Below the pieces are notes generated by a model. It was not told the DNA's origin. It ran no database searches and saw nothing but the letters and a program-made list of their open reading frames with translations. Below, piece by piece: positions 1,308-12,849 of a stretch of 14,795 nt of DNA; position 1 is the stretch's first letter, and each line of letters begins with the position of its first letter. The stretch is from an uncultured Pseudomonadaceae bacterium (GTDB taxonomy: Bacteria > Pseudomonadota > Gammaproteobacteria > Pseudomonadales > Pseudomonadaceae). The stretch lies in contig CANRHT010000027.1 in the NCBI GenBank assembly GCA_947630465.1, positions 1 through 14,795 on the forward strand, given 5' to 3'. The translations under genes and the position numbers were made by a program.

Positions 1308-1973
<666 letters not shown>

Positions 1974-4977: not shown

Positions 4978-5023
4978 CGGCTGACAGCCGCGCAGCTAGC
5001 CGGTAAAGCGGGCTAACTGCGCG
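4978..5023. terminator. Inverted repeats between the convergent ridA and epimerase-like genes
   Basis: There are two adjacent hairpins. CGGCT-GAC-AGCCG lies at 4978-4990. A longer one pairs CGCGCAG (4989-4995) and TAGCC (4997-5001) with GGCTA (5011-5015) and CTGCGCG (5017-5023): 12 pairs with one mismatch and a 9-base loop. The second overlaps the stop codon of the minus-strand gene. The two share bases 4989-4990, so they may be alternatives. No T-tract follows on either strand, so intrinsic termination is uncertain; the position between convergent genes suggests transcript-end protection or weak bidirectional termination. Confidence 0.35.
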
Positions 5024-5856
5024 GCATAACCTTCGCGATAACTCGGATACTGTGGCGCCCAACCCAAGGCTTTTGCCCGTGCATTACTGCAGCGTTTACT
5101 GCCAGAGCGCGGTTGTAAGATTAAATCGGGCGCATGACTGACCTGTAACTGCTGCTGCAACCACGCTACCACTTCAGCCTGCTCAACCGGCTCATCATCC
5201 ACACCAATATACAACGATTCCAATAGCACACCCTGCGCATCCGCCTGCACAATTTTGGCAATCAGCGCCGCGGCATCATCCGCATGAATACGATTGGTAA
5301 AACTCGGAGTATCAGCGGCGTGATAACCCTGCTGAACCCGACGAATTAACATATCGCGCCCCGGCCCATAAATGCCGGTTAGACGTACTGCTGTCGCCGG
5401 ATGACCACTGGCGAAAGCGCACTGCTCGGCTTCCAGCATGATTTGCCCTGACCAACGCTTAGGTAACGTGGGTGATTGCTCATCAATCCAGCTGTCATCA
5501 TCCTGCGCATAGACTCCGCTACTGGAGACAAAGATCACCCGTTTTGGCTGCTGCTGATGTTGCGCCAACCAGCTGTACATATGGCGTTGACCGAGCACAT
5601 ACGCCTGCTGATAACCTTCAGGCGTCATCGCGTTAGCTGCCATGGCATAGATCACATAATCAATCGGCTGCGTCGGCCAAGCACTTGGGCACTGTGGCTG
5701 AAATATATCAGCTGCAATAGGCTTAATCGCCGCCGGTAAGTGCGCGGTATTACGGCGTACACCATAGACGTCACAGCCCTGCTGCTGCAGCAAGAGCGCG
5801 ACTCGACTGCCAATATCACCGCAGCCCACCACAACAACGCGTAACGGCTTAAACAT
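4996..5856 (-). CDS. NAD(P)-dependent epimerase/dehydratase-like protein (YeeZ-like)
   Basis: A 286-residue atypical extended short-chain dehydrogenase. Seen: the N-terminal Rossmann motif VVVVGCGDIGSR (GxGxxG) near residues 7-18, a central VIFVSSSGVYAQDD segment and TAVRLTGIYGPGRD, typical of NAD-dependent epimerase/dehydratase proteins. The classical YxxxK catalytic pair is not evident near the central Tyr, so catalysis is uncertain and the substrate unknown. I chose the ATG at 5854-5856 because GAGG lies about 9 bases upstream; the frame extends 15 further codons to 5901 without family similarity. The gene converges on ridA and diverges from oxyR, sharing a 93-bp promoter region with it. 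Homologues in this neighbourhood in Pseudomonas are annotated as NAD(P)-dependent oxidoreductases or sugar nucleotide epimerases. Confidence 0.85.
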   Translation of the reverse strand: MFKPLRVVVVGCGDIGSRVALLLQQQGCDVYGVRRNTAHLPAAIKPIAADIFQPQCPSAWPTQPIDYVIYAMAANAMTPEGYQQAYVLGQRHMYSWLAQHQQQPKRVIFVSSSGVYAQDDDSWIDEQSPTLPKRWSGQIMLEAEQCAFASGHPATAVRLTGIYGPGRDMLIRRVQQGYHAADTPSFTNRIHADDAAALIAKIVQADAQGVLLESLYIGVDDEPVEQAEVVAWLQQQLQVSHAPDLILQPRSGSKRCSNARAKALGWAPQYPSYREGYAAQLARFTG

Positions 5857-5909
5857 GCTGATCGCCTCAAGTTTCAATTGCTGATGATAATTATTGGTCA
5901 CAATTTAAT

Positions 5910-5949: not shown

Positions 5950-6870
5950 ATGACACTGACCGAATTGCGTTACATCGTTGCCTTGGCACAAACTCAACAC
6001 TTTGGTCGAGCGGCAGAACTCTGCCATATCAGCCAACCCACCTTATCTGTAGGCGTGAAAAAACTCGAAGAAGATTTGGGCGTGCTAATTTTTGAGCGCA
6101 GTAAAAGTGCCGTACGCGTCACTCCTGTTGGCGAAGCAATTGTGGCGCAAGCGCAGCGTGTACTGGAGCAAGCACAAAGCATCCGCGAACTGGCACAAGC
6201 CGGTAAAAACCAATTGGCCGCGCCATTACGCGTAGGGGCGATTTACACCGTGGGGCCGTATTTGTTTCCGCAGATGATCCCTTTCTTGCACCGCAGTGCA
6301 CCAGAAATGCCCTTGTACATCGAAGAAAACTTCACCCATGTACTGCGTGAAAAGCTGCGCAAGGGTGAGCTGGATGTAATCATTATTGCTTTGCCGTATC
6401 AGGACACCGACGTACTGACGAAGGCGGCTTATGTTGAGCCTTTCTGTGTATTACTGCCGGGCAATCATCCGTGGACGCAAAAAGACAGCATCGACCACAC
6501 TATGCTCAACGATAAAAGTTTACTGTTATTGGGCGAAGGCCATTGCTTCCGCGATCAAGTGTTAGAAGCTTGCCCCACCACTTTGCAAGGCAACCCTGAT
6601 AATCGCTACACCACGGTTGAAGCCAGCTCCTTAGAGACGATTCGCCATATGGTGGCCTCGGGGTTAGGCGTTTCCGTACTGCCACTGTCGGCGGTGGATA
6701 ATCATCGTTATGCGGCAGGCGTGATTGCGGTACGTCCTTTCACAGAACCCTCGCCCACCCGTACGGTCGCTATTGCTTGGCGCGCGACTTTCCCACGCCC
6801 GAAAGCCATTGACGTGCTGATGGATGCCATCCAGCAATGCGATGCGGCACAAGTGCATTACGAGCCTTAG
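5950..6870 (+). CDS. oxyR: Hydrogen peroxide-sensing LysR-type regulator OxyR
   Basis: A 306-residue LysR-type regulator that activates peroxide defence genes. The N-terminal helix-turn-helix is clear (TELRYIVALAQTQHFGRAAELCHISQPTLSVGVKKLEEDLG). The diagnostic redox site is seen as GEGHCFRDQVLEAC, with Cys at residues 199 and 208, the same positions that form the disulfide in E. coli OxyR. The effector-binding domain is complete and length is normal (E. coli 305). GGAA lies upstream of the ATG. recG follows after 2 bases, suggesting co-transcription; the oxyR-recG pair is conserved in Pseudomonas, where recG expression depends on the oxyR promoter. Autoregulation is likely from family knowledge. 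Confidence 0.96.
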   Translation: MTLTELRYIVALAQTQHFGRAAELCHISQPTLSVGVKKLEEDLGVLIFERSKSAVRVTPVGEAIVAQAQRVLEQAQSIRELAQAGKNQLAAPLRVGAIYTVGPYLFPQMIPFLHRSAPEMPLYIEENFTHVLREKLRKGELDVIIIALPYQDTDVLTKAAYVEPFCVLLPGNHPWTQKDSIDHTMLNDKSLLLLGEGHCFRDQVLEACPTTLQGNPDNRYTTVEASSLETIRHMVASGLGVSVLPLSAVDNHRYAAGVIAVRPFTEPSPTRTVAIAWRATFPRPKAIDVLMDAIQQCDAAQVHYEP

Positions 6871-9017: not shown

Positions 9018-10418
9018 ATGTCTGAAGCTCATACACCTGCTGTACTTGATACGCCTCTCCCCGCAGCGATAAGCCATGCACTGCGCGCGGCGAACATAGC
9101 CTTTAGCCTGCATGCGCTGGCTGATATTGATGCAGCCCTGCAAGTACAAACTGTGGTGCTACAAGACGGTGCCAAGCAGTCGCTGGTTGTGTTTCCACGC
9201 CAACATATTCTCGACCTTAGCCAACTCAATAAAGCCACCAGCGCACACTGGCGCGCTGCATCCGCGGCAACACTGCAACGCTGCCTCAACCAGCATGCTG
9301 TCGCTGAAGTGATTGCGATTCCACAATTGTTCGCGATGCCTTGCATCTATGATCCCGTGCTATTGGATCGTCCAAGGCTCTACCTGCCTTACCCAGCACT
9401 GGGATTGGCCATTGGCTTAGACTGCCACGCGGTCAAGGCACTGTTAGCACACAGCAGCGCCTTGTCTTGCAGTGCCGAACTTAGCCATCAGAACGCCAAC
9501 CACAGCCCAGCGACTGAGGATGCAGAAGGTATTCAGCATGCGGTCATTCGTCTGACCTCAAGACGTATTCATCAGCGCTTGCAAGAAACCTTAGATATTC
9601 CGCTACTGAGCACCACCGCGCAAAAAATCTTACGCTTACAAGCCCATGCCGATGATATTGATATCGACGAGTTGATCAGTATCGTGGAGACAGACCCTGC
9701 TTTAGCCGCACAAGTGGTGAGTTGGGCGGCTTCAGCCTATTACGCCGCGCCGGGTAAAATCCGCTCGGTCGAAGATGCCATCACCCGTGTGCTGGGTGTT
9801 GATTTAGTGGTCAACTTATCCATCGCCCTGTCGCTCAAAGACTCTTTAGCCATGCCTAAAGAGCAGCCACAGCATTACACGCCTTATTGGCGTCAAGCCA
9901 TTTACACTGGAGCCTTGATCGAAGGTTTAGTACGTGCCATGCCTGCTGAACATAAACCTGAAAGCGGTTTGGCCTATCTGGCGGGTCTGCTGCATAACTT
10001 TGGTTTTTCGTTATTGGCTTATGTATTCCCACCCCACTTTTCGCTGGTGTGCCGCTCGTTAGAGGTGAATCGTCATTTAAGCCACAGTACGGTGGAATCT
10101 TATTTATTGGGCATTACCCGTGAGCAAATGGGCGCTTGGTTAATGCAGTGCTGGAATATTCCCGAGGAACTGGTCAACGCGTTGCGCTATCAAGACAATC
10201 CTGATTATGCCGGCCCGCATGCCAGCTACGCGAATCTCTGCTGCTTGGCTCAGCGTTTACTGGCGCAGCATGGGATTGGCTCTATTCATGACGCCAGTAT
10301 TCCCAGCGCACTGTATGCGCGCTTAGGTTTATCGGCTGAGCGTGCCCAACAAGCGTTGCAACGCGTGCTAGACGCAGAGCTTGCGCTGCAGGAGTTGGCG
10401 CAGCAGTTTAGTCAGTAA
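9018..10418 (+). CDS. Fusion of aminoacyl-tRNA deacylase-like (YbaK) domain and HDOD domain
   Basis: A 466-residue two-domain protein. Residues about 1-155 resemble a YbaK/ProX-type aminoacyl-tRNA deacylase domain (ALRAANIAFSLHALADID, then AKQSLVVFPRQHILDL). From about 180 to 390 there is an HDOD domain: TSRRIHQRLQETLDIPLLSTTAQKIL, VETDPALAAQVVSWAASAYY, and YLAGLLHNFGFSLLAY, where the metal-binding HD of true HD phosphohydrolases reads HN, as expected for catalytically inert HDOD. HDOD proteins act mainly as regulators in signalling. Pseudomonads carry this architecture next to recG, annotated as 'aminoacyl-tRNA deacylase and HDOD domain-containing protein'. Activity of the first domain is unproven. 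The last 23 codons and the stop lie inside a 76-bp sequence repeated 271 bp downstream. The 3' end overlaps the convergent hydrolase end by 11 bases. Confidence 0.88.
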   Translation: MSEAHTPAVLDTPLPAAISHALRAANIAFSLHALADIDAALQVQTVVLQDGAKQSLVVFPRQHILDLSQLNKATSAHWRAASAATLQRCLNQHAVAEVIAIPQLFAMPCIYDPVLLDRPRLYLPYPALGLAIGLDCHAVKALLAHSSALSCSAELSHQNANHSPATEDAEGIQHAVIRLTSRRIHQRLQETLDIPLLSTTAQKILRLQAHADDIDIDELISIVETDPALAAQVVSWAASAYYAAPGKIRSVEDAITRVLGVDLVVNLSIALSLKDSLAMPKEQPQHYTPYWRQAIYTGALIEGLVRAMPAEHKPESGLAYLAGLLHNFGFSLLAYVFPPHFSLVCRSLEVNRHLSHSTVESYLLGITREQMGAWLMQCWNIPEELVNALRYQDNPDYAGPHASYANLCCLAQRLLAQHGIGSIHDASIPSALYARLGLSAERAQQALQRVLDAELALQELAQQFSQ

Positions 10419-10424
10419 GCGCTG
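10349..10424. repeat. 76-bp exact direct repeat, copy 1 (probable donor)
   Basis: Identical over 76 bases to 10620-10695. This copy spans the last 23 codons and stop of the HDOD gene, plus the ancestral 3' tip of the convergent hydrolase gene. It is judged the original because it fits both genes naturally. The left end holds a perfect 12-bp palindrome GCGTTGCAACGC (10353-10364) and the right end AGCGCT. Confidence 0.95.
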
Positions 10425-11361
10425 GCAGCAAAAACGCTCGTACGCGCTGCGCACTGCTGTGTGGATACTGCTGCATAAAACAGTGCCCACCCCCGACCTG
10501 CTCAGCGATAATATGCGGGTTGCGCTGCATGCACAGCCGCGCTGACTTGCCTACAAAGCTATAGGAATGCTCACCGTGCAGAAACAACACCGGCTGTTGT
10601 ATCTGCCGCACCGCGGCCCACAAGCGTTGCAACGCGTGCTAGACGCAGAGCTTGCGCTGCAGGAGTTGGCGCAGCAGTTTAGTCAGTAAGCGCTGCGGTG
10701 CACTGCTAAAAATCGTCGCCTCCAGCCAAGCGGGGCATTTAAGCGTTACCCCCTCCTCGTCGGCTGGGCGCAAGCCAAAGTCCACATAGGCCTGCAATGC
10801 GGGGGCAGTCCAACCTTTAAAAGCACCGCGCCCGGTCAAACTGGCATAGGCTGCAGCACGATCAGGCCATTGACTGCGCCGCACCAAAGTACGCCGCGCT
10901 AAGCTATGAAAGCGCGCAAATCCCAAGCGCTGTGCAACGCGCAAATACGCTTGTATCGGTGGGGTAAAAATCACCGGATCCAATAATACCGCGGCCCGAA
11001 ACAACTGCGGATGCTGCGCCATTATCAAAGTGGTTAACACACCGCCTAAACTGTGGCCACAGGCGTACACCGGCGCATCAGCGAAGATCGAGCGCTGTGC
11101 TTGAAAGGCTTGTACCGCTAGTTCAGCGTTGCTGTTCCAGCCCAAAAAGTCTGTGCCGCTATCGCTGTCACCGTGCCCTTGAATATCACACAACCACACA
11201 TCAAAGTCGGCACTGAGTTGCTCCAGCATGGGCGTATACACCCGCCCACACAGGCCGTTGCCATGTAAAAAATGCAACACCGGTTTACCTGAAGGAATGC
11301 TATGCCAACCGCGCACAGTGGGGGCGTGATCGCTGCTGTATGACCAAGGTTGTAAATTCAT
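10408..11361 (-). pseudogene. Alpha/beta hydrolase gene interrupted by an in-frame duplicated segment with an amber stop
   Basis: N-terminal part (11361 down to the TAG at 10639-10641, 240 residues): oxyanion region HFLHGNG at 30-36, DIQGHGDSDSG near 59-69, and nucleophile elbow GHSLGG with Ser104. The same frame continues after the TAG to a TAA at 10408-10410, carrying PVLFLHGEHSYSF and GGGHCFMQQYP, whose His is the likely catalytic His. Deleting 22 codons (Q223 to V240, stop, H-A-L) rejoins APQRLWAAV and gives 295 residues, normal for the family. The inserted codons are a copy of the HDOD gene end. The truncated product should lack the catalytic His; amber read-through would give 317 residues with a 22-residue insert. 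The gene lies 32 bp downstream of the CobW-like gene, likely co-transcribed. The native substrate is unknown. An assembly error is the main alternative. Confidence 0.85.
10620..10695. repeat. 76-bp exact direct repeat, copy 2 (inserted in hydrolase gene)
   Basis: Identical to 10349-10424 and offset by 271 bp. It lies inside the minus-strand hydrolase frame and supplies the amber codon at 10639-10641. The flanks share short homology with the donor (AAGCGTTG on one side, AAGCGCTG on the other), which fits template switching or microhomology-mediated insertion. No mismatches have accumulated, so the event is recent or artefactual. Confidence 0.95.
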
Positions 11362-12362: not shown

Positions 12363-12495
12363 CGCGATAGCTCACTCAACAATTGGATCAACAAAGCGCC
12401 ACCTTAACAAAATTGCTTTATGCCTGCGCGTCGCTTCACCTCATCGCTGCGCTTGGTTAAGATGGAACAGCTTATTCAAACCTTTGGAGCTCTGT

Positions 12496-12849
12496 ATGCG
12501 CCGTTATTACCTTTTATTATTGATGTTATTAAGCTCGCAGATTTTTGCCCAAGCCTGCGTAATTGAGTCCGCCGATGAGCGCGTACAGATCAAAATCTGC
12601 CAACAAAACCGCAGCATTCCTGAGCAGATGTTTAAAAGCGGTTTTTGTCAGCCGCAGTTACAAGGTCAAAAAACTAAAGTCACCTTTGTTGAGCAATGCC
12701 CGATTGGCGCTTTTGGTGTGTGCCGTAATGCACAAACAGCTGGCGTACCTTATCAGCAAGATATCCACTATTACGGCGTAGATACCGACGCGCGTTACCT
12801 CAAACCTGCCTGTGAAAAACAGAGTAAAGGCGTGTGGATGGCCTACTAG
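12496..12849 (+). CDS. Small secreted six-cysteine protein of unknown function
   Basis: A 117-residue protein starting MRRYYLLLLMLLSSQIFAQA, a clear signal peptide: two Arg, a Leu-rich core and an AxA-like site (AQA) before Cys21. The residues before Cys21 are A-Q-A, which do not fit a lipobox well, so periplasmic export by signal peptidase I is favoured over a lipoprotein. The mature part has Cys21, 35, 51, 68, 76 and 106, enough for three disulfides, and motifs FCQPQLQGQK, CPIGAFGVC and QDIHYYGV. I have the impression of similar proteins in pseudomonads, but no function is established. GGAG lies 6 bases before the ATG at 12496; the frame can begin at a TTG at 12484, which is less likely because it would lie over the GGAG. 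It stands alone, divergent from the CobW-like gene. Confidence 0.75.
   Translation: MRRYYLLLLMLLSSQIFAQACVIESADERVQIKICQQNRSIPEQMFKSGFCQPQLQGQKTKVTFVEQCPIGAFGVCRNAQTAGVPYQQDIHYYGVDTDARYLKPACEKQSKGVWMAY

Follow-up and report, generated by a model that had tools for sequence, protein, structure and literature searches.

A 66-bp copy of a neighbouring gene end, probably acquired by template switching, truncates a conserved alpha/beta hydrolase gene in a relative of Denitrificimonas

Short-patch double illegitimate recombination, reportedly described in Acinetobacter baylyi by Harms et al. in 2016, joins an intragenomic patch to its target at two microhomologies. Patch-type microhomology recombination of this sort is known mainly from laboratory strains, and the loss of recJ raises the number of short-patch double illegitimate recombination events. 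In Escherichia coli, the junctions of lac amplicons contain 2-15 bp of microhomology, and most of the switches discussed for FoSTeS/MMBIR span tens to hundreds of kb (PMC2621351). Direct-repeat insertions in which ABA becomes ABABA are reported for yeast carrying a rad27 deletion (PMC5677150).

This study analyzed a window of 14,795 nucleotides, which constitutes one whole contig (C27) of a draft genome of 308 contigs (2.2 Mb, 76% complete, and 3.4% contaminated). The window carries a 76-bp direct repeat, the second copy of which lies within an alpha/beta hydrolase gene (Table 1). This second copy represents a gain of 66 bp that none of the 11 congeneric loci compared carries. We consider it likely, with a probability of roughly 0.78, that it arose when DNA synthesis slipped onto a nearby gene end and back; it is predicted to inactivate the hydrolase. 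A short intragenomic patch and two microhomologies are features that the locus shares with the Acinetobacter baylyi events as these are generally characterized; it differs from them in that donor and target are neighbours. Similar to FoSTeS/MMBIR, both new joins at the locus coincide with a short stretch of shared sequence, and a segment was apparently copied from another template; in contrast to most switches discussed in that source, the event is only 66 bp long, bridges about 0.2 kb, and returns to the same place (PMC2621351). The gain of an A-B unit bounded by short direct repeats A resembles the insertions in rad27-deletion yeast, where the new unit is in tandem with the old one (PMC5677150), whereas the unit in the window landed about 200 bp from the donor, on a third A. 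The event is a further case of established microhomology-templated mutation and not a new system.

Table 1. Features of the repeat and of the two convergent genes in the window (positions on the forward strand)
Feature	Position	Strand	Remarks
Intact HDOD-domain gene, 466 aa	9018-10418	+	Source of the copied end; ORF; PF08668, 144.9 bits
Donor copy of the 76-bp repeat	10349-10424	+	Last HDOD codons and stop, along with the 3' end native to the convergent hydrolase gene
12-bp perfect palindrome GCGTTGCAACGC	10353-10364		Left end of the donor; again at 10624-10635
Rest of the hydrolase frame past the TAG	10408-10638	-	No further stop before the native one; includes the histidine motif GGHC
Inserted copy of the 76-bp repeat	10620-10695	+	Within the hydrolase gene; adds 66 bp net (e.g. 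10627-10692), the remainder being shared microhomology
Left junction microhomology ACAAGCG, 7 nt	10620-10626	+	
In-frame amber stop TAG	10639-10641	-	Introduced by the copy
Truncated alpha/beta hydrolase ORF, 240 residues	10639-11361	-	Identical to P0001 at 225 residues, followed by 15 that the insert encodes
Right junction microhomology AAGCGCTG, 8 nt	10688-10695	+	Equals the donor end, 10417-10424

The two copies of the repeat are identical at all 76 bases, start 271 bp apart, and are separated by 195 bp; chance cannot account for this identity. The intervening 195 bp distinguish the arrangement from a tandem duplication, in which the copies are adjacent, although a subsequent deletion could conceal such an origin. 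When the whole draft genome, itself 76% complete, was searched with the repeat (E 0.001), two matches were returned, both on the window's contig, and a mobile or dispersed element was ruled out on the basis of these two copies. The first-pass annotation had reported the identity and its spacing at exactly the positions given in Table 1, and it had assigned the copied segment to the end of the HDOD gene; both statements hold. The HDOD stop codon TAA (10416-10418) lies within the donor. The donor also contains the native stop codon of the hydrolase gene itself (TAA at 10408-10410, minus strand). The two convergent genes overlap by 11 bp at their ends, which makes the donor a gene end common to both. 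Among the congeners, the hydrolase end is overlapped by an opposite-strand ORF over 4-11 bp in 10 of 11 loci; the G003 locus has no such overlap. The search for the HDOD protein took in 8 of the 11 congeneric genomes, and the matches extended to the last one or two residues in seven of them; the eighth, G003, had no match.

Near its N-terminus, the HDOD protein encoded in the window also weakly matched PF04073, the aminoacyl-tRNA editing domain (21.5 bits against a cut-off of 25.5). According to a precomputed table, this domain is carried by many of the listed Pseudomonas HDOD homologues and is mostly absent from the closest relatives. The editing domain is possibly degenerating in the window's lineage.

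We compared the hydrolase locus with 17 of 29 loci from other genomes, namely 11 congeneric loci (L004-L014) and six loci from other genera of the family (L015-L020). The hydrolase gene was matched in all 11 congeneric genomes searched. The hydrolase frame was uninterrupted in every congeneric locus (291-294 residues) and in every locus from the other genera (290-294 residues), and the 66-bp segment was missing from all 11 congeneric loci in the part of the DNA that aligned. The relatives of the hydrolase included Denitrificimonas caeni DSM 24390 (72% identity) and several metagenome-assembled genomes (six loci), which identifies the source organism as a relative of Denitrificimonas, in all likelihood an uncultured one. 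The best hydrolase match among the matches listed was P0001, a protein of 295 residues from a public assembly (source labelled ena, on a contig of 2,853 bases and with 17 member sequences). P0001 is identical to the window's product over residues 1-225 and then runs on, without the inserted segment, into what the window encodes beyond the insert. No homologue shorter than 290 aa was observed among the 120 listed of the 1,127 found. An alignment with orthologues, which the first-pass annotation had proposed as a check on the 22 codons, thus revealed that these codons are lacking in 11 of 11 congeneric loci and in P0001. The possibility that orthologues naturally contain the segment was ruled out by the congeneric loci, the listed homologues, and P0001. 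The empty site in the congeners, together with the intact P0001, indicates that the extra 66 bp are the newcomer.

On the basis of this sequence comparison, there is an intact allele in what seems to be the same species. When P0001 was aligned with the 3' part of the gene in the window (10411-10686, minus strand), differences were observed at residues 268, 277, 288, and 295. All four thus fall among the last 70 residues, whereas the first 225 contain none (Fisher p 0.003). Compared with the congeners, P0001 seems to carry the derived state at two of these positions. The clustering of the differences at the 3' end suggests that this part of P0001 may belong to another strain, a point that counts against the preferred reading. 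Relaxed selection after inactivation was considered as a source of the 3'-only differences and set aside as unproven, since two of the four look P0001-derived.

Both junctions of the inserted copy coincide with short homologies, as had been claimed before this analysis; these measure 7 and 8 nt. The joint chance of both microhomologies for random breakpoints is about 4e-8, a value computed after the fact. The left flanks, including the microhomology, form a 26-nt alignment with a score that 10 of 20,000 random stretches reached. Taken alone, the right 8-mer is not rare, since 955 of 20,000 random stretches scored as well. The donor has the structure A-B-A, in which A denotes the near-copy 8-mers AAGCGTTG or AAGCGCTG located 66 bp apart, and the target contains a third A, AAGCGCTG. 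This geometry suggests a template switch. Synthesis would have left the target at a short shared sequence and moved to the first donor A, copied 66 bases from the nearby gene end, exited at the second donor A, and moved back to the target. The target A would thereby have become A-B-A and would have gained one A-B unit exactly. The 12-bp palindrome, which had likewise been pointed out earlier and is present at the left end of the donor, could have favoured a pause at the donor start, although this is a guess. A nearby donor kept in place, an empty site in relatives, and microhomology at both joins are three of the features by which a templated insertion is identified, and these three were found at this locus; such an insertion would in addition arise by DNA synthesis independently of RecA. 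The complete identity of the copies (76 of 76 bases) suggests that the insertion is recent.

These data fit either a replication template switch with return or a microhomology-guided patch. The second of these could correspond to short-patch double illegitimate recombination, in which a free single-stranded DNA fragment of the gene end would anneal at two microhomologies in a lagging-strand gap and be incorporated. The intragenomic donor, the two microhomology joins, and the short patch are features generally attributed to this process, and a short patch with microhomology at both ends agrees with its usual definition. However, the donor is only about 200 bp from the target, and an ordinary switch within one fork suffices to explain the joins; moreover, recJ, which would suppress such events, is present with an open frame, although this by itself is not decisive. 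mutS is likewise present with an open frame, and the presence of both genes means that no mutator state is indicated by them. The sequence outcome is the same as that of a template switch. We regard incorporation of a free fragment as improbable. The same sequence would also result from two steps, a tandem duplication of 271 bp and then the deletion of 205 bp, and this counts against the best explanation. A broader proposition is that overlapping convergent gene ends spaced by short near-repeats act as ready donors, such that the 66-bp A-B unit jumps onto the neighbour's third A, and that the locus represents natural patch-type microhomology recombination in a wild bacterium; we hold this to be doubtful.

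The inserted copy lies within the minus-strand hydrolase frame, and the net insertion of 66 bp corresponds to 22 codons. The first-pass annotation had described the insertion as in frame and as bearing an amber stop codon, and our results agree on each point: the TAG ends the ORF after 240 residues, and the frame beyond it is open to the native TAA. The gene belongs to a recognizable hydrolase family, with three profiles above the cut-off (PF12697, 55.6 bits; PF12146, 51.9 bits; PF00561, 51.0 bits), and a homologue in Pseudomonas aeruginosa, an alpha/beta hydrolase listed under the gene name PoxA (P0064), is 59% identical to the broken gene. In 11 congener pairs, the dN of the hydrolase was 0.19-0.25, and in the 9 of the 11 pairs for which dS could be computed, it was 1.6-3.5, that is, near saturation. 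Judged from these rates, the gene was under purifying selection before the insertion.

The effect of the truncation was assessed on an AlphaFold2 model of P0001 (mean pLDDT 86.6). The closest solved fold to this model was 3kxp, an E-2-(acetamidomethylene)succinate hydrolase (TM 0.74 over the query). In the model, the strands at residues 236-241 and 262-267 and His271 fall after the cut. Alignment A1 contained 26 full-length rows from the 120 listed hydrolase homologues; Ser104 and Asp128 were invariant in it, and both precede the cut. Asp128 is the putative acid of the catalytic triad, by analogy with related enzymes. The motif GGHC was present in 26 of 26 full-length rows. The histidine motif had earlier been given as GGGH, which needs refinement: the conserved part is GGHC, and the preceding residue is never G in the 26 full-length relatives (A, D, E, N, P, S, T, or V, with Q and R also occurring in the congeneric loci). 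The product encoded in the window retains the nucleophile Ser104 and lacks His271. Because two core strands and the histidine motif are missing, the 240-residue product is predicted to be inactive.

It could be argued that the gene still yields a functional protein, either the 240-residue form or one made by read-through and longer by 22 residues, given that the frame is open after the TAG and that the length of the insert is divisible by three. Such divisibility, however, arises one time in three. TAG serves as the stop codon of 4 of the 12 other main ORFs examined in the window (1356-1973, 4996-5901, 5950-6870, and 12484-12849), and the 240-residue form is without the histidine motif that is present in all of the full-length relatives aligned. 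A functional product is thus very unlikely.

The 76-bp direct repeats, separated by 195 bp, are by general knowledge long enough to recombine, and they could in principle form a phase switch that turns the hydrolase off and on. The coordinates argue otherwise: the minus-strand TAG and the HDOD end are present alike in both repeats, and deletion between them would change neither predicted protein. Recombination restoring the gene, which is what a phase switch entails, is not what the arrangement yields. The earlier statement that such recombination deletes 271 bp without restoring the gene was correct, and the hydrolase would still be truncated. The intact gene would come back only through a precise loss of the 66 bp at homologies of 7-8 bases, which should be rare. 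Since recombination between the repeats changes neither predicted protein end, the lesion is effectively one-way. In addition, the copy is missing from all 11 congeneric loci, and no exact repeat of at least 18 bp within 600 bp was present at related loci of 18 genomes (25 records, of which seven were second views of a genome already counted); in these records, the locus gave no sign of being a hotspot. A reversible switch, one of the three readings that the first-pass annotation had offered, is extremely improbable.

Another of these readings was an assembly artefact, in which a chimeric read or an amplification product joined donor to target in the library or the assembly and entered the draft. 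The fragmented state of the draft agrees with this reading, as does the near-identical allele without the insert in another assembly, and the short homologies taken here as a sign of template switching in the cell could equally guide a PCR chimera. Nevertheless, an artefact needs two new junctions, both at one target 8-mer, and the 685,984 bases surveyed in this genome contained no other clear intragenic duplication of such a kind. A k-mer assembler would not by itself make a join across an overlap as short as 7-8 nt, which counts against the artefact, and k-mer misassembly is an unlikely source of the repeat. A Salmonella study offers evidence on both sides: duplication candidates of 7 bp and 9 bp failed verification, and a cut-off of 11 bp was deduced for true duplications, which counts against a real insertion here, whereas split reads with microhomologies at cut-offs of at least 7-9 bp exceeded simulated ligation chimeras (PMC3411829). 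We retain the artefact with a small weight, as an unlikely origin of the sequence. Of the three readings, a fresh gene-inactivating event is favoured.

We surveyed spaced exact repeats of at least 25 bp within 1 kb in 41 stretches of the same genome (685,984 bases, window included). Such repeats were identified in three stretches, namely the window, L097, and L099, and the latter two look like dispersed repeats, as judged from their stop-rich translations. Short-unit tandem arrays were observed in three further stretches. The same survey in six congeners (40 stretches, 799,668 bases) identified spaced repeats only in G004 (L075 and L080) and G007 (L133). A genome full of such events, as expected of a mutator or a bad assembly, was not seen, with spaced repeats in 3 of 41 stretches. 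The repeats at L097 1-321 and L099 2995-3308, both in the window's genome (G000), occur in stop-rich sequence; in L097, a 153-bp sequence occurs twice at a contig end, with agreement at 152 of 153 bases and 168 bp between the copies, and this repeat may have broken the assembly there. The arrays of G004, a congeneric genome in a single contig, are located at 17101-18425 of L075 and 10952-14160 of L080, and their repeats most often lie about 456-459 bp apart. The repeated stretch at 16921-17439 of L133 is 411 bp apart and may be a dispersed repeat.

The locus provides a readable example of a short templated insertion that breaks a conserved gene, in which the donor, the target, both joins, and the empty site are all visible. 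The arrangement of donor and target could serve as a reporter design. For annotators, it constitutes a trap, because an in-frame insertion resembling a 22-codon extension actually ends the protein. Given that the hydrolase gene was matched in every congeneric genome searched, the loss predicted for the window's strain would be unusual.
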